A stretch of 6,868 bases of DNA from positions 1 through 6,868 of the forward strand of contig JAMORD010000102.1 of NCBI GenBank assembly GCA_027063755.1. Reading direction: 5' to 3'. Source of the stretch: a bacterium. GTDB lineage: Bacteria > Coprothermobacterota > Coprothermobacteria > Coprothermobacterales > JAADFF01. Below, piece after piece: positions 1 to 6,868 of the stretch (position 1 is its first letter; every line of letters starts with the position of its first letter). Made by a program: the position numbers and the translations under genes. Under the pieces are notes generated by a model. The model worked only from the letters and a program-made list of their open reading frames with translations. It had not been told where the DNA came from and made no database searches.

Positions 1-522
1 TATTTAATAAAACATGCATTTGTTGAGGATGATAATGTATATGTGGAGCATGACGGAGATATTTATAACCCACCGTCCGCTCCTGCAGGACATATCGTCA
101 ATGCTTATGTTGGATTTTATCAACCTTCTTCCGATGATAAGCAGTCAAATATTGTCAAAGTAGGACGCATGTACGAAGAACCAGTTTCTTCTGTTTACTG
201 GCATATGACAGCAACAAATGCTTGCTTACAAACGGGTGGTTCGTTTTTCATGCCTATTATTACATTTGAAATTCCTGAGAGACAAATTGCAGTTATAGGA
301 CTGCCTCAATATGAGCCTGAAGATATATACTTTGTCCCCATATATGCTTCTTTGAAAGGAGAAGTAAGGAAATATCATCCTTTGGTTGAGATAAAAGGTT
401 ATCTCATTGTTAGGGTATATGGAGATGTTGCTTACGGAAACGAGAGACAGAGACATCTTATTGTTGTAGATGTGCCCGTATATATAAAACAACTTTTCAA
501 AGTGGTGGATATCGGTGGCTAA
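1..522 (+). CDS. Uncharacterised protein, 3' part (N-terminus outside window)
   Basis: The frame is open from base 1 to a TAA at 520-522, giving 173 visible residues. A GTG at 43 is in frame, but there is no Shine-Dalgarno before it and coding-like sequence continues upstream (YLIKHAFVEDD), so the gene very probably starts outside the window. The visible part has no transmembrane segment. It alternates short hydrophobic stretches rich in V, I and Y with polar turns, ending in repeated beta-like strands (ITFEIP, QIAVIGLP, YLIVRVYGDV, HLIVVDVPVYI), which suggests a beta-sandwich-like fold. I recognise no family. Its 3' end overlaps the next gene by 8 bases in another frame, so the two are probably translationally coupled; the partner is a membrane protein. 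It could be a soluble or surface-exposed companion of the membrane proteins downstream, but that is inference from position only. Confidence 0.75.
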   Translation, partial: YLIKHAFVEDDNVYVEHDGDIYNPPSAPAGHIVNAYVGFYQPSSDDKQSNIVKVGRMYEEPVSSVYWHMTATNACLQTGGSFFMPIITFEIPERQIAVIGLPQYEPEDIYFVPIYASLKGEVRKYHPLVEIKGYLIVRVYGDVAYGNERQRHLIVVDVPVYIKQLFKVVDIGG

Positions 523-973
523 CTGGTGCTATGTATTCATGCATCCCTGTATATTCAATATTGAAAGCATGTTGCTGACAGCAACTACTGTGGCTTTGGT
601 TAGAACGCGGTTTTACAAACCCCTTCAGAGATGGGTTATATCTGTTTTCATGATACTGTCTAATGCCTTAATGCTACTTGTGTTTCCCTATATGGGGCTA
701 TGTGTGTATATTCCGCCACTGCCCCGCAGTGTTTTATGGATATCTATGATAGCAGTTTACCTTCTTATATGGCATGTCAAAGACATCGTAGATATCGCTC
801 CAAAGTGGATAAAGATAGTGTTGGTGGCTTTGATATTTGTTCTTTTCTTTATTTCCCATAGATTTATAGTTCTGTCGTTTGTCGTGTCTTATATGCTTTT
901 GCATATTACTGACCTGATAAATGAGTTTCGTGCCATACGGCCTATTGATAGTGAAGAAGACAAAAAAGCATGA
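515..973 (+). CDS. Small polytopic membrane protein, unknown function
   Basis: This 152-residue protein starts at GTG 515, inside the end of the preceding gene, with a purine-rich GTGGTGGA about six bases upstream. An in-frame ATG at 539 (residue 9) is a possible alternative start. Hydrophobic segments near residues 12-30, 40-60, 70-88, 98-115 and 117-132 suggest four or five membrane spans. Basic residues (R30, R32, K36, R39) sit between the first two spans. The C-terminus is charged and polar (INEFRAIRPIDSEEDKKA) and probably cytoplasmic. No catalytic or transport motif is visible and I do not recognise the family. The 8-base overlap with the upstream gene argues that the two products are made together and may interact. 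Confidence 0.8.
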   Translation: MANWCYVFMHPCIFNIESMLLTATTVALVRTRFYKPLQRWVISVFMILSNALMLLVFPYMGLCVYIPPLPRSVLWISMIAVYLLIWHVKDIVDIAPKWIKIVLVALIFVLFFISHRFIVLSFVVSYMLLHITDLINEFRAIRPIDSEEDKKA

Positions 974-2057: not shown

Positions 2058-2096
2058 TGCGGTATACTATCTATGAAAATACCTTTAAAGGGGGGA
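2058..2096 (+). repeat. 39-bp exact direct repeat, copy 1
   Basis: This 39-base stretch (starting TGCGGTATACTATC, ending TTTAAAGGGGGGA) is identical to 6046-6084 in the same orientation. It contains a -10-like TATACT at 2063-2068, an inverted repeat GGTAT/ATACC (2061-2065 with 2079-2083), the 10-bp palindrome CCTTTAAAGG (2082-2091) and a run of six G. In copy 2 that G run is the Shine-Dalgarno of kbl. Here no credible gene follows: the longest frame from ATG 2073 is 31 codons without a ribosome-binding site. It begins 11 bases after the stop codon of the plus-strand membrane gene. Confidence 0.9.
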
Positions 2097-2221
2097 CGTA
2101 TACGGTATTGTGTGATTGTATATGAAATACGTTCTCCCAGAGTATCTGGGTTAATATTAGTTCTATAACACAAATCGTTTCATTTCAAATGTTCAGACCT
2201 GTTTTACTGTTAATTTTTCTC
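2097..2221. other. Non-coding stretch between repeat copy 1 and the eroded gene
   Basis: I see no coding frame on either strand here. The stretch contains a small perfect hairpin at 2136-2150. It also contains an imperfect echo of part of the upstream repeat, with CGGTAT at 2103-2108 and ATGAAATAC at 2122-2130, compared with CGGTAT and ATGAAAATAC in the 39-bp element. Confidence 0.5.
2136..2150 (+). terminator. Possible weak terminator hairpin
   Basis: CCCAGA and TCTGGG form a perfect six-base-pair stem around a three-base loop GTA. On the plus strand it is followed by TTAATATTAG rather than a clean T-run; on the minus strand the tail is not T-rich. It lies between the convergent plus and minus gene groups, where a terminator would be expected, but the stem is short and the tail imperfect. 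Confidence 0.3.
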
Positions 2222-2586
2222 TCAAGAGGCTTGTATCCCCAGTATCTCTATAAGCATCATTACAAATAACACATCTGCCTCTATGATGTTGTCATCAAAC
2301 ATTCTGCCAGTCATTTTTTACAGATACTTTGTCTTCACTGATTATTACTTCATAAGGATCATTTGAAAAGTCAATGTTCATATAACTCTGAGTTTTGTTG
2401 TTGTGTCATCCAGCTTTGACCTTCTTATATCTTACCCACCTTAATATCTTTCTCTTCTAGCACCTTCAGAAGCGCCTTATAAGAGTTACATCACACAATG
2501 CAGACAGTCTCCGTTCTTTTCTCTTTAATAAAAATCCTTGTCAGGACACGTATATTGCCACACTCGCATGGTTTATAATATAGCAC
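2222..2586 (-). pseudogene. Eroded small gene with zinc-ribbon-like N-terminus
   Basis: On the minus strand, coding-like fragments follow one another across frames. From GTG 2586, which overlaps the end of the ATPase gene by 14 bases, a frame reads YYKPCECGNIRVLTRIFI and then KEKRTETVCIV up to TGA 2493-2491. The same frame continues CNSYKALLKVLEEKD to TAA 2427-2425 and a little beyond. A second frame from ATG 2381 gives MNIDFSNDPYEVIISEDK and stops at 2297-2295. A third from ATG 2314 gives MTGRMFDDNIIEADVLF and ends at TGA 2224-2222. The CxCG pair and later Cys residues resemble a zinc ribbon. Two in-frame stops and two frame changes within about 365 bases indicate a decayed gene that was once the last member of the ABC operon. 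The family is not recognised; chance open frames remain a possible alternative. Confidence 0.45.
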
Positions 2587-3262
2587 CTGATGATGGGATT
2601 CTACCATCTTCAATATGGATAATTCTTGATGGTATACTGTTGACCAGTCGCATTGAGTGTGTGGCTATGATGAATGTTGTTTTCATTTTGTTGTTGATGT
2701 CTATAATCATCTGTGCTATGTACTTTTCCGTTTCTGAGTCAACATTGCCTGTTGGTTCGTCCATGACGACAATGCGTGCTTGAGACGCGATGGCCCTTGC
2801 AATACTTGCCCTTTGTCTTTCGCCTCCACTCAGTTGATAAGCTAGTCTATGTGCCTTGTCACTTAGACCTACATATTCTAATGCCTGGGTAATACGGTTT
2901 TTCTGTGTTTTCTTATCCAGATTTCTTATAGGTAATGCTATGTTTTCCCATACTGTCAGTTCTGGTAATAGATTGAATTCTTGAAATACAAATCCAAACC
3001 ATTGTTTTCTTATCTGAGCTGCTTCTTTTTCTGATAAACGAGACATATCTTTACCCATAAATATACGTTTGCCATCTGTTGGTGTGTCTAAAAACGATAT
3101 GATATGTAGTGTTGTACTTTTTCCGCTACCACTAGGTCCCATGATGAAGACGATTTCTCCTTCGGAAACAGACAAATTGACGTCTTTCAATGCGTTTACT
3201 GTTATATTACTGTCTTTGTATGTTTTTTTAACATGCTCTAGTTGTATTATAGGTGTGCTCAT
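2573..3262 (-). CDS. ABC transporter ATPase, LolD/MacB type
   Basis: This 229-residue nucleotide-binding subunit would hydrolyse ATP at the cytoplasmic face to drive the permease encoded just upstream. All motifs are intact: Walker A GPSGSGKST (residues 42-50), Q-loop glutamine in FVFQEFNLLPELTVWEN (Q94), signature LSGGERQ (144-150), Walker B RIVVMDE (163-169) followed by PTGNVD, and the switch histidine in ATHSM (H202). The V in GNVD, where L is usual, is conservative. Length and motif wording fit the LolD/MacB/FtsE branch that pairs with FtsX-like permeases and serves mechanotransmission, lipoprotein or peptide/bacteriocin export systems. ATG 3262 has a six-G Shine-Dalgarno seven bases upstream, formed partly by the permease stop codon. 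Substrate cannot be read from the ATPase; context suggests the Cys-rich product of the same operon or resistance to a toxic peptide. Confidence 0.93.
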   Translation of the reverse strand: MSTPIIQLEHVKKTYKDSNITVNALKDVNLSVSEGEIVFIMGPSGSGKSTTLHIISFLDTPTDGKRIFMGKDMSRLSEKEAAQIRKQWFGFVFQEFNLLPELTVWENIALPIRNLDKKTQKNRITQALEYVGLSDKAHRLAYQLSGGERQRASIARAIASQARIVVMDEPTGNVDSETEKYIAQMIIDINNKMKTTFIIATHSMRLVNSIPSRIIHIEDGRIPSSGAIL

Positions 3263-3274
3263 TTCATATCCCCC

Positions 3275-5422
3275 CTAAATATCTCTCTTAAGTATGGTTG
3301 TAATATCGCTATCTTGTAGTGCTTTTGGTATGGTGTATAGCATGAGAATAAAGAGTATGAGAAATACAATTATGGGTATGGTGCCTATCACTATCCACGG
3401 TGTGTATGACCAGCCTAAGTATATAAATCCACCTATTGTTAGGCTTATGCCCAATATGGTGCCTATAACAACTGCTATTAGTATGGAACTACTGTATCTT
3501 TTAATGATAAACATCAAACCTTCATGCATAGTAAAACCACATGTTAACAAACTTGCAACTCTGTAAGGACCTCTCGTTACCATAATAGAGTATATGCTTA
3601 GTGCTAGTATATATATTACCAGCAGTGCGGATAATATAACAATAGTTGCCAGTATATGAATGTTATACTTGCTATATAAGATAGTTGATTTGATGTTGTT
3701 TCCCAAATCCATTGCCTTTTTGAGCCTTCTGCTGACATAGAGTACAAAGGCATGCTCTTCCGACTGAGATGAGATTTTTATGGTGGGATATGAATCTAAT
3801 ATTATATTGCCTTCTACATTGCCTGATAGATTCTTCCAGTTATCTATAACCTTGACCGGTGCATGGAACTTAATCTTTGCCCATGGGGATAGATATGATA
3901 ATGATTTGCTAAGAAATACTGTTTGTCCATCATATGATATGCCACCAATAACATGATCTGATAGGGTGGGTATATCTTGTATAGAGGTTGTTATATCTGA
4001 TAGAGGCATAAACAGGTATCCTCCCGTAAGAATATGGTCGAAAGAGTAAAGATTGGTGTTAGCTTTACCAGTATATAGTGTTGTGGCAAGTATGGAAAAT
4101 GTGAATATAGAAAATGCAGAGAATATAAGTAATGGCATGATGATTAATTTAAAATTTATGATAATATACCCATGTCCTCCAACACTGATATGTATTTGTT
4201 TACTCATTGCTCTGTGTATAAGTGCTATGAATATTATGGGGAGAGTTAGTGATAGTAGTGTAATACTATTCCACGGATGTATGTTGAGAATATAATTAAC
4301 TTTGTTAAGATTAACGCTGACAGATAGAAATGTTGGAATAGTAATATGCCATAGATCAGTTAGAATCAGTGAGATGATAAGACCAACAATATAACCTGTA
4401 AGTACTGATAGTATTTCTCCTTTTATTAGTGTCCATGAAGTATTCCCCAGTGCATAAAGCACCAACAAATTTTTGCTATTAATTTGATAGACACTACGAT
4501 GTAGAAGGTATATGCCAGTGATTATTGATATTATTAAGGACATTGACAGTATGAGTAATACAAGACTCAGTATGGCACCAATAAGAACACCTACTGGACT
4601 ACCAAGCCATCGATATTCTTTCCAGTGTTTCCCTGTTTGTATAGCCCATCTTTCAATATTATTCTTGTTGTCTTTGAACAAGAAACGTGTATTATAAAAG
4701 ACCTTGTTAGGTTGGGTTTGTAAGTCTCTGACATACTTCCATGGAATATACAAAACAGCTGTATTTACTGGGCAATTTTGTTCGTATAGTGGATTAATGG
4801 TAGATATATTGTGTGTGTTATGAAAGGGAATATTTATGTTAGGAATGAATTGCTTTAGTTTTTGATATTCACTTTGTGGACCGATCAGGGCTATATCTGT
4901 GGGTTTCTTCTCAAATGAGCATGGTAATGCCTCAATATCCCCGAGCAGTATGTGGGTAGGATATTCCAGAGAAAGTTTATTAATAAATTCTTCCATTGTA
5001 GGTGGTACTTTTACTAAGTTTCCATGGTTGTACAATGGTGTTTCAACAAGCACATGCGAGATGTATTGTTTTGAGAGATATACATCTCTTTGTGTTACTG
5101 GAAGTTGTTTTCCATACTTCAACCATATTATATTGTTACTTTCAAGGTTTTTCATAATTTTATAGACATCGGCAATAGTGATGCCACCGACAATGATGTG
5201 TGGTAGTCCTTTAAGAACACGTATTTTCATAACAGGAAATAGGTACTTCATCGGTTGCCAGAAGTCTATGCCAGGTTGCCCTTCTTCTGCTAACGGTACG
5301 TATACGTAGCTTGATGGCTTATGTTTCCAGCCAAAGGTGTAACTGGCTATATTTAGTGATAGCACGAACAGGATAACACTAAGCGCCACGGATACTGAGA
5401 TAATAATGTATCGGTTTTTCAT
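3275..5422 (-). CDS. Large ABC permease with two MacB/FtsX-type halves
   Basis: The protein has 715 residues from ATG 5422, chosen because GGAGGAG (5434-5428) lies five bases before it; the longer open frame to 5527 runs through the preceding gene and has no such site. Predicted spans lie near residues 5-27, 277-304, 338-357, 387-404, 424-449, 588-613, 645-669 and 675-697. This gives two repeats of one span, an external domain (about 250 and 140 residues) and three spans, the MacB/FtsX layout duplicated in one chain. FtsX-like coupling sequence appears as VASLLTCGFTMHEGL, and the C-terminus has DITTILKRD, like the usual end of such permeases. One chain would make a pseudo-dimer serving an ATPase dimer. 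The architecture resembles bacteriocin-associated integral membrane proteins of lactococcin-972-type cassettes, though I cannot confirm family membership by eye. Stop TAG at 3277-3275 is 12 bases from the ATPase start. Codon use is rich in ATA, TTA and AAT. Confidence 0.88.
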   Translation of the reverse strand: MKNRYIIISVSVALSVILFVLSLNIASYTFGWKHKPSSYVYVPLAEEGQPGIDFWQPMKYLFPVMKIRVLKGLPHIIVGGITIADVYKIMKNLESNNIIWLKYGKQLPVTQRDVYLSKQYISHVLVETPLYNHGNLVKVPPTMEEFINKLSLEYPTHILLGDIEALPCSFEKKPTDIALIGPQSEYQKLKQFIPNINIPFHNTHNISTINPLYEQNCPVNTAVLYIPWKYVRDLQTQPNKVFYNTRFLFKDNKNNIERWAIQTGKHWKEYRWLGSPVGVLIGAILSLVLLILSMSLIISIITGIYLLHRSVYQINSKNLLVLYALGNTSWTLIKGEILSVLTGYIVGLIISLILTDLWHITIPTFLSVSVNLNKVNYILNIHPWNSITLLSLTLPIIFIALIHRAMSKQIHISVGGHGYIIINFKLIIMPLLIFSAFSIFTFSILATTLYTGKANTNLYSFDHILTGGYLFMPLSDITTSIQDIPTLSDHVIGGISYDGQTVFLSKSLSYLSPWAKIKFHAPVKVIDNWKNLSGNVEGNIILDSYPTIKISSQSEEHAFVLYVSRRLKKAMDLGNNIKSTILYSKYNIHILATIVILSALLVIYILALSIYSIMVTRGPYRVASLLTCGFTMHEGLMFIIKRYSSSILIAVVIGTILGISLTIGGFIYLGWSYTPWIVIGTIPIIVFLILFILMLYTIPKALQDSDITTILKRDI

Positions 5423-5427
5423 ATTAT

Positions 5428-5434
5428 CTCCTCC
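5428..5434 (-). promoter_or_regulatory. Ribosome-binding site of the permease gene
   Basis: GGAGGAG precedes ATG 5422 by five bases. Its first G is the last base of the TAG stop of the Cys-rich gene, so termination of one gene places ribosomes directly at the start of the next. Confidence 0.8.
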
Positions 5435-5941
5435 TATTGTCCACATGTTCCTTCCCTGCATAAAACTATGAATCCCAAGCTTGCGCCACAACAGGATTTG
5501 ACTACTCTTCCATCTGTTGTGCCACACAAATAGCCTTCCCGTTCATACATGGACCATGTCTGTGGGGAACAATGGTTGCATTTGCAGCAGATCCATCCTC
5601 CCTTAACGGGACGGCATGGATTACATCCTGTAACACATACAGGACATTCATCATGGTTTATTGATATGCACCATGGCGCTTTTAAACAGTAATTTATTGG
5701 TGCTGGGTCTTTATAATCTTTATTTGGGATAAATGAGCAGTTGTCTGATTCATTTGTTTGGTTTACGGATAGGGAATGATTGCCTTGAAGGCAGTTTTTG
5801 GATGGTAGTTTAAAATCAGGATAGGATGAATATTGCATTGCAGACGAATATGGAGGATAAATAGATATTAGTAAGATAAATATAATTGCTATTACCCCCC
5901 CATAAACTTGATGTGAGTTTTATTGACCTGCTTTTTTGCAT
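5434..5941 (-). CDS. Exported cysteine-rich precursor, frame broken at a G-run
   Basis: The uninterrupted part, from ATG 5838 to TAG 5436-5434, encodes 134 residues with 17 cysteines, dense in the second half (ECPVCVTGCNPC, WICCKCNHC, SCCG). ATG 5838 has no Shine-Dalgarno, and the frame extends upstream through a hydrophobic stretch VIAIIFILLIS ending IYPPYSSA, which looks like a signal-peptide core and cleavage region. The matching basic start, MQKSRSIKLTSSLW, is in a different frame from ATG 5941, which has a good Shine-Dalgarno (AAGGTGG at 5953-5947). The two frames meet at seven G (5901-5895); six G would join them into a preprotein of 168 residues. It is the first gene of an operon with an ABC exporter. 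It may be a secreted disulfide-rich or metal-binding protein, or a bacteriocin-like precursor; I recognise no family. Phase variation, programmed frameshift, inactivation and sequencing error are all open. Confidence 0.65.
5895..5901 (-). repeat. Homopolymer run of seven G inside the signal-peptide region
   Basis: The minus strand reads TTTATGGGGGGGTAATAG here. The basic N-terminal frame enters it as TTA TGG GGG GGT and goes on to a hydrophobicity-free reading; the frame that carries the hydrophobic core leaves it as GTA ATA GCA. Loss of one G connects them. Such runs are prone to slippage. The alternative is that the run serves as a Shine-Dalgarno, but the nearest codon at suitable spacing would be the rare start ATT (5886). 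Confidence 0.6.
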
Positions 5942-5946
5942 CTTTT

Positions 5947-5953
5947 CCACCTT
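5947..5953 (-). promoter_or_regulatory. Ribosome-binding site of the Cys-rich gene
   Basis: AAGGTGG lies five bases upstream of ATG 5941. This is the best start signal anywhere upstream of the Cys-rich frame and is the reason for placing the gene start at 5941 rather than at the unsupported ATG 5838. Confidence 0.65.
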
Positions 5954-5977
5954 CTTTCTTTTGATTTTTCCAACAAC

Positions 5978-5985
5978 ATTATAAC
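5978..5985 (-). promoter_or_regulatory. Extended -10 promoter of the ABC operon
   Basis: The minus strand reads TGTTATAAT (5986-5978), a perfect TATAAT preceded by the TGn extension. No good -35 hexamer is present at 16-18 bases (a poor TCGACT lies at 19), which is common for extended -10 promoters. Transcription would begin near 5971 and give a leader of about 30 bases before ATG 5941. It lies about 70 bases from the opposing -10 of the kbl gene. Confidence 0.6.
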
Positions 5986-6050
5986 ATAGATAATATATAG
6001 ATAGTCGATATTAGAGAGTTGTCTTTACTTCTCTTTATGCGTTTGTGCGG

Positions 6051-6056
6051 TATACT
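6051..6056 (+). promoter_or_regulatory. Probable -10 box of kbl
   Basis: TATACT matches TATAAT at five of six positions and lies 40 bases before the kbl start. No convincing -35 hexamer is found 16-18 bases upstream. Transcription from here would start near 6063 and leave a short leader carrying the palindrome and Shine-Dalgarno. Confidence 0.4.
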
Positions 6057-6069
6057 ATCTATGAAAATA

Positions 6070-6079
6070 CCTTTAAAGG
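6070..6079 (+). promoter_or_regulatory. Palindrome overlapping the kbl ribosome-binding site
   Basis: CCTTTAAAGG is a perfect 10-bp palindrome whose right end runs into the six-G Shine-Dalgarno (6078-6083). An additional arm pair GGTAT/ATACC (6049-6053 with 6067-6071) overlaps its left end. It could be an operator or a switch that hides the ribosome-binding site; a repressor or ligand is not identifiable here. The same elements occur in repeat copy 1. Confidence 0.35.
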
Positions 6080-6090
6080 GGGGATATGTG

Positions 6091-6868
6091 GTGGAGGAAA
6101 AACTGAAATGGATGGAAGAAGAGCTTGAACGTCTCAAAGAAGAGGGCAGGTATGTTACCATACGCACCCTTGAAAGCCCTCAGGGTGCATGGATTGTTGT
6201 TGATGGTAAGAAGGTTCTCAACCTGTGTTCCAACAACTACCTTGGCTTTGCCAATGACCCAAGACTGAAGGAAAGTGCCAAGAAGTATATTGACCAGTGG
6301 GGGGTTGGCCCCGGTGCCGTGCGTACTATTGCCGGTACTATGAAGATACATGTAGAGCTTGAGAAAAAGCTGGCAGAGTTTAAGCGTGTAGATGCCGCTA
6401 TACTGTTCCAGACAGGTTTCAATGCAAACTTGGGTGTTATCCCGTCTATTGTCGGTAAAGAGGATGTTATCTTCTCTGATAGACTCAATCACGCCTCTAT
6501 CATTGACGGTGCAAGACTTTCCAAGGCTAAGATTGTTGTATACGAACATATTGACCCCGATGATCTGTATAAGAAGATGAAGGAATATGCTCCAGAGTAT
6601 AAAGGTAAGAGAATGCTTGTTGTAACCGATGGTGTGTTCTCTATGGATGGAGATATTGCACCGCTTGACAAACTATATGAGATTGCCAATGACTTTGGTG
6701 CCATTATGATGGTAGACGATGCCCATGGTGAAGGTGTACTAGGTGAGGCAGGAAGAGGTATTGTTGACCACTTCGGTCTGCACGGCAAGGTAGATATTGA
6801 GGTGGGTACCCTCTCCAAGGCCTTTGGTATCATTGGCGGATTTGCAGCCGGTAAGCAGATTATCATAG
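6091..6868 (+). CDS. kbl: Glycine C-acetyltransferase (2-amino-3-ketobutyrate CoA ligase), 5' part
   Basis: The frame is open to the window end and gives 259 residues of an expected 390-400. It is a PLP-dependent fold-type I enzyme of the alpha-oxoamine synthase family. Kbl cleaves 2-amino-3-ketobutyrate with CoA to glycine and acetyl-CoA, the second step of threonine breakdown. Visible motifs are [11 protein letters not shown] (46-56), the Kbl-style [15 protein letters not shown] (77-91), [10 protein letters not shown] (106-115), H134 in [28 protein letters not shown] (179-192), D209 and H212 in VDDAHGEG, and the PLP lysine K243 in GTLSKAFG, close to K244 in E. coli Kbl. GTG 6091 sits six bases after the G-rich Shine-Dalgarno; GTG 6088 and ATG 6061 are in-frame alternatives. 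BioF (8-amino-7-oxononanoate synthase) is the main other possibility. It uses many C-ending codons (AAC, GCC, GGC, CTC), unlike the neighbouring ABC operon. No tdh is visible in the window. Confidence 0.88.

Follow-up and report, generated by a model that had tools for sequence, protein, structure and literature searches.

A cysteine-rich gene encoded with an orphan double-MacB transporter in a cassette of lactococcin-972-like layout

A cassette composed of a cysteine-rich gene, a large permease with two MacB/FtsX-like units and a stand-alone ABC ATPase, which is unrecognised by current family models, occurs twice in one bacterial genome. One copy lies in the window (the whole stretch of DNA analysed, 6,868 nucleotides), which is the entire contig C102 of a 1.5-Mb genome in 251 contigs; the other lies on contig C92. 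The layout resembles that of lactococcin 972 loci, and it is about an even call, in our judgement, that these are self-contained cassettes for exported-peptide competition and self-protection, working like lactococcin 972 with a cysteine-rich product. The features of the window on which this analysis draws are as follows.

2058 to 2096, plus strand: left copy of an exact 39-bp direct repeat (sequence comparison).
2058 to 6045, no strand assigned: 3,988-bp insertion carrying the cassette (comparison with the sister species, genome G001).
2097 to 2570, minus strand: decayed copy of a PCC-domain (PF03479) gene and the first ~100 bp of lgt (comparison with the intact counterpart on contig C13).
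2573 to 3262, minus strand: 229-aa ABC ATPase of the LolD/FtsE/MacB class (motifs, family scores).
3275 to 5422, minus strand: 715-aa permease with two MacB/FtsX-like units (8 TM), an orphan family (open reading frame, hydropathy, searches).
5434 to 5838, minus strand: Cys-rich frame, presumed mature portion of a secreted protein, 17 Cys in 134 aa (open reading frame).
5894 to 5941, minus strand: ATG preceded by a ribosome-binding site (RBS), with the charged n-region of a signal peptide, one base off-frame from the rest (sequence reading).
6046 to 6084, plus strand: right copy of the 39-bp repeat, which is the leader/RBS region of a Kbl/BioF-type gene (sequence comparison).

An earlier sequence-only reading of this DNA had described a tight minus-strand operon of three genes and the fusion of its stop codons with the RBS of the gene that comes next, and both points were borne out. 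The Cys-rich frame (5838-5434), the permease (5422-3275) and the ATPase (3262-2573) follow one another in this order, and stop codons run into the following RBS, as read in CAATAGGAGGAG.. and ATTTAGGGGGGATATGAAATG. Codon-usage scoring did not separate the ATPase and permease from their own reverse frames. The proposed LolD/MacB class of the ATPase was confirmed by its Walker A (GPSGSGKST), signature (LSGGE), Walker B (VVMDEP) and H-loop (THS) motifs and by a score of 124 bits against PF00005. The highest scores of the window and C92 ATPases were to the LolD model (TIGR02211; 222 bits, E 6e-66, and 214 bits, under the equivalog cut-off of 307.75). Hydropathy of the permease revealed a pattern of TM1, a large loop and TM2/3/4 that occurs twice, with which the weak AF2 secondary structure is consistent. 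The duplicated MacB/FtsX layout proposed earlier for the permease held in topology (two units, 8 TM), but the family assignment did not, as the permeases matched neither Pfam FtsX nor MacB_PCD at E values up to 1.

The Cys content of the window frame (17/134, 12.7%; binomial P about 6e-19) is far beyond chance, because genes sampled from this genome (about 310 kb) and from its sister (268 kb) have a background of only 0.4-0.6%. Cys-rich exported genes are otherwise nearly absent from the sampled ~310 kb. The sequence-only reading had taken this gene for a signal-peptide-like, 17-Cys protein; the Cys count stands, but a single intact precursor does not, since the start and n-region occupy a different frame from the body. 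From the ATG at 5941, which a good RBS precedes, translation gives MQKSRSIKLTSSLWGG before running on in the wrong frame, whereas the hydrophobic signal core VIAIIFILLISIYPPYSSA shares the frame of the Cys-rich body, one frame away from that ATG. The body frame stays open upstream to about 5920 and so covers the signal core; a TAA closes its upstream end, and this extension has no start codon (no ATG, GTG or TTG before 5838). The frame break coincides with a run of seven G (G7; about 5896-5904), at which the precursor may be broken by a fixed mutation, phase-variable through slipped-strand or transcript-slippage switching, or mis-assembled.

Within the genome itself, searches turned up a single permease homologue and a single close ATPase, each of them on C92, where a diverged second cassette is contiguous and in the order Cys-rich gene, permease, ATPase. 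The association between the Cys-rich gene and the transporter is thus replicated within the genome. The C92 precursor is intact: a signal peptide is plain to the eye (MKDIVKPLLMCVIVGAVFLSFLSFIPNVSA), and the mature part of 100 aa holds 11 Cys. Its permease (682 aa) is homologous to that of the window (C-terminal BLASTP E 3e-08 at 28% identity; 23% across the whole alignment), and the two ATPases are 53% identical. In a quick tree of 74 sequences, these ATPases were mutual closest relatives with a support of 99. Homologues of the permease or ATPase consistently lacking an adjacent Cys-rich gene had been named beforehand as evidence that would speak against the association; the sole detectable permease homologue, on C92, has such a gene directly 5' and the ATPase directly 3', which favours the association. 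The precursors are far more diverged between the two cassettes than the ATPases, and the alignment of the two Cys-rich proteins was not above that of shuffled sequences (p 0.18-0.33). We do not claim a common scaffold seen by eye, C-x2-C-x2,3-C-..-C-x9,10-CC-..-C-..-C, because shuffles attain its alignment score. The C92 precursor gene has its RBS, start codon and N-terminus duplicated by a 54-bp in-frame tandem repeat (L013:2297-2404), and a secreted 344-aa orphan protein without a family match is encoded downstream of this cassette (L013:5944-6978).

Relatives of the permeases and Cys-rich proteins were sought widely. No convincing match was found in Pfam, NCBIfam, PHROGs, PADLOC or the PDB, where we disregarded a few sub-threshold matches (E 0.03-0.5). 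Viral contigs contained no relatives of either protein, and plasmids none of the permeases. Among up to 386 genomes, only the C92 paralogue was recovered, besides short weak stretches, so the cassettes are known from one genome only. Weak matches of the permease profile in other genomes (E 1e-4 to 1e-2) were short and mostly C-terminal, and we judged them to be chance or general FtsX-like similarity. One such match that we inspected, in genome G021, falls among three tandem permeases of ~850 aa with no Cys-rich gene adjacent; these proteins (839-853 aa; L160:5063-12824) have a double-MacB-like TM pattern, and TIGR01654 and the cassette permease profile each match them weakly. No convincing Cys-rich secreted gene was seen beside the 80 nearest reference-genome ATPases. 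The AF2 models of the permease and Cys-rich protein (pLDDT 34 and 32) were too poor for fold comparison.

Both cassettes have the order precursor, permease, ATPase of lactococcin 972 loci (lcn972-orf2-orf3; streptococcin scbABC), with which the cassette also shares a ~700-aa permease with TM1-loop-TM2/3/4 twice and a stand-alone MacB-class ATPase. As for the signal peptide of such precursors, one is apparent by eye in C92, and in the window its parts are divided between two frames. In a Paludifilum genome (L239), an authentic lcn972 cassette whose precursor carries GGGTWSYG agrees in both gene order and TM topology, although its permease is interrupted by a stop codon in that assembly, and the permease and ATPase of L240 likewise show this layout. 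The family models the sequence-only reading had pointed to nevertheless came out negative. TIGR01654 did not match the permease by hmmscan or in the own-genome search, and HMM and profile-profile comparison with TIGR01654-type permeases found no similarity (hhalign probability 0.3%). The ATPases scored 177.3 and 206.6 bits against TIGR03608, under its cut-off of 254.85, and three lactococcin-972 ATPases formed a separate clade in the 74-sequence tree, also with a support of 99. Neither Cys-rich product matched the lactococcin_972 family in Pfam or NCBIfam. As judged from sequence, the cassette is therefore lactococcin-972-like in its predicted working and not a member of the lcn972 family, since precursor, permease and ATPase all fall outside it; it may be convergent with lactococcin 972 or too diverged for a membership call. 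In lcn972 itself, orf2-orf3 are regarded as an ABC transporter for immunity (PMC4055356), and some pneumococci without a functional peptide retain scbBC; the roles of B and C in lcn972 loci are themselves unproven (PMC11796350).

Other known systems resemble parts of the cassette. MacB/LolCDE ABC transporters share the ATPase class and FtsX-like topology, but the permease here comprises two fused units, has no Pfam FtsX/MacB_PCD match and lacks a membrane-fusion partner gene. The ATPases score 190-202 bits on the DarD model of the darobactin exporter DarBCD, below the 375-bit cut-off, and no radical-SAM enzyme or RiPP precursor adjoins the cassette. Laterosporulin-type defensin-like bacteriocins, as small disulfide-rich bacterial peptides, are a possible parallel. 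The products here are larger, with 11-17 Cys, and match no Pfam or NCBIfam family.

In the window, the cassette lies within a 3,988-bp segment that G001 lacks. Positions 1008-2096 and 6046-6515 match one G001 contig and overlap there by the 39-bp sequence, which occurs once in G001 and twice here, and the Kbl/BioF-type protein is 97-99% identical to that of G001. Because the G001 flanks are joined over a single repeat copy (an empty site), the segment is an insertion unless G001 has lost it; it may also be an artefact of the assembly graph, created around the element in circular form. We set aside a transposon target-site duplication, as the repeat is too long for one at 39 bp, no transposase is present, and the junction on the left, between repeat and pseudogene, falls within a shared CCCCCCTTTAA. 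The adjacent fragment (2570-2097) is 61% identical to the intact PCC-domain/lgt locus on C13 and ridden with indels. Since this end of the insert is a decayed copy of the PCC gene and the start of lgt, the cassette probably once adjoined a ppc-lgt locus. The permease and ATPase stayed open while this passenger decayed, which suggests selection on the transporter.

From the layout we infer function, and with it secretion, disulfide formation, antibacterial action and the transporter substrate. The first gene would encode a small Sec-exported protein with many disulfides, or bound metal, whose folding takes place outside the cytoplasm and whose targets are neighbouring cells. Together, the double-MacB permease, with its two large extracytoplasmic domains, and the separate LolD-type ATPase would make up an ABC module that lifts the peptide off the producer membrane or extracts it from there, conferring self-protection and possibly release. 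Unless G7 is an assembly error, the window copy may have retained self-protection after reversible or permanent peptide loss, given that the peptide gene is off-frame, both transporter genes are intact and the adjacent passenger gene has decayed; this parallels the pneumococci that keep scbBC. The absence of both cassettes from G001 fits accessory loci and counts for a competition cassette, whereas three points count against it: no known bacteriocin or immunity family proved homologous in Pfam, NCBIfam and other family searches, the Cys-rich pair failed to align above shuffles, and the B and C roles are unproven even in lcn972 loci. Of the secreted Cys-rich peptide or bacteriocin system proposed earlier, the lactococcin-972-type layout, replicated on C92, thus survives, but the window precursor is off-frame, the lactococcin models are unmatched and the Cys-rich pair is not alignable.

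ATPase scores that are highest against LolD, CxxC/CCxC clusters that could bind metal and the absence of a matched toxin or immunity family would also suit a Lol/MacB-like envelope transporter for a metal- or redox-active Cys-rich exported protein (metal capture or envelope redox) with no antibacterial role. We consider this somewhat unlikely, as the cassette is a duplicated accessory element carried on an insertion, no metal site can be aligned between the two Cys-rich proteins, and no metal genes adjoin either cassette. The frame break and the indel-rich PCC/lgt fragment could instead mark a decaying insert, in which a transporter remnant and a dead Cys-rich gene leave the window copy without present function; frames of 715 and 229 codons that remain open with all ATPase motifs kept despite decay of the passenger, and an entirely intact C92 cassette, make this decidedly improbable. 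More improbable still is a sensing role for the ABC module, in the manner of Bce-type peptide-sensing and detoxifying transporters, with the Cys-rich protein as the signal or surface peptide that it senses. Co-transcription and an 8-TM FtsX-like permease whose extracytoplasmic loops are large fit such a role, but no two-component system or regulator adjoins either cassette, and the permease has two similar MacB units against the 10-TM layout of BceB.

If the competition and self-protection reading is correct, the precursor-plus-double-MacB plan of lactococcin 972 here accommodates a Cys-rich product that is unrelated, together with a permease family so far unrecognised; family-model searches overlook such cassettes, and layout, not sequence, is the way to find them. 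A bolder and unlikely extension is a new class of Sec-exported, highly disulfide-bonded peptide toxins with orphan double-MacB self-protection transporters, mobile in a sparsely sampled small-genome phylum and switched on and off by poly-G frameshifting. The intact C92 copy renders the exported-peptide idea directly testable.

A pair of genes for a secreted protein and a membrane protein (window 1-973) lies beside the insertion site. Neither this pair nor a paralogous one has a convincing Pfam family for any member; the paralogous pair (L175:2215-4003; 32% and 26% identity) lies beside the intact ppc-lgt locus on C13.
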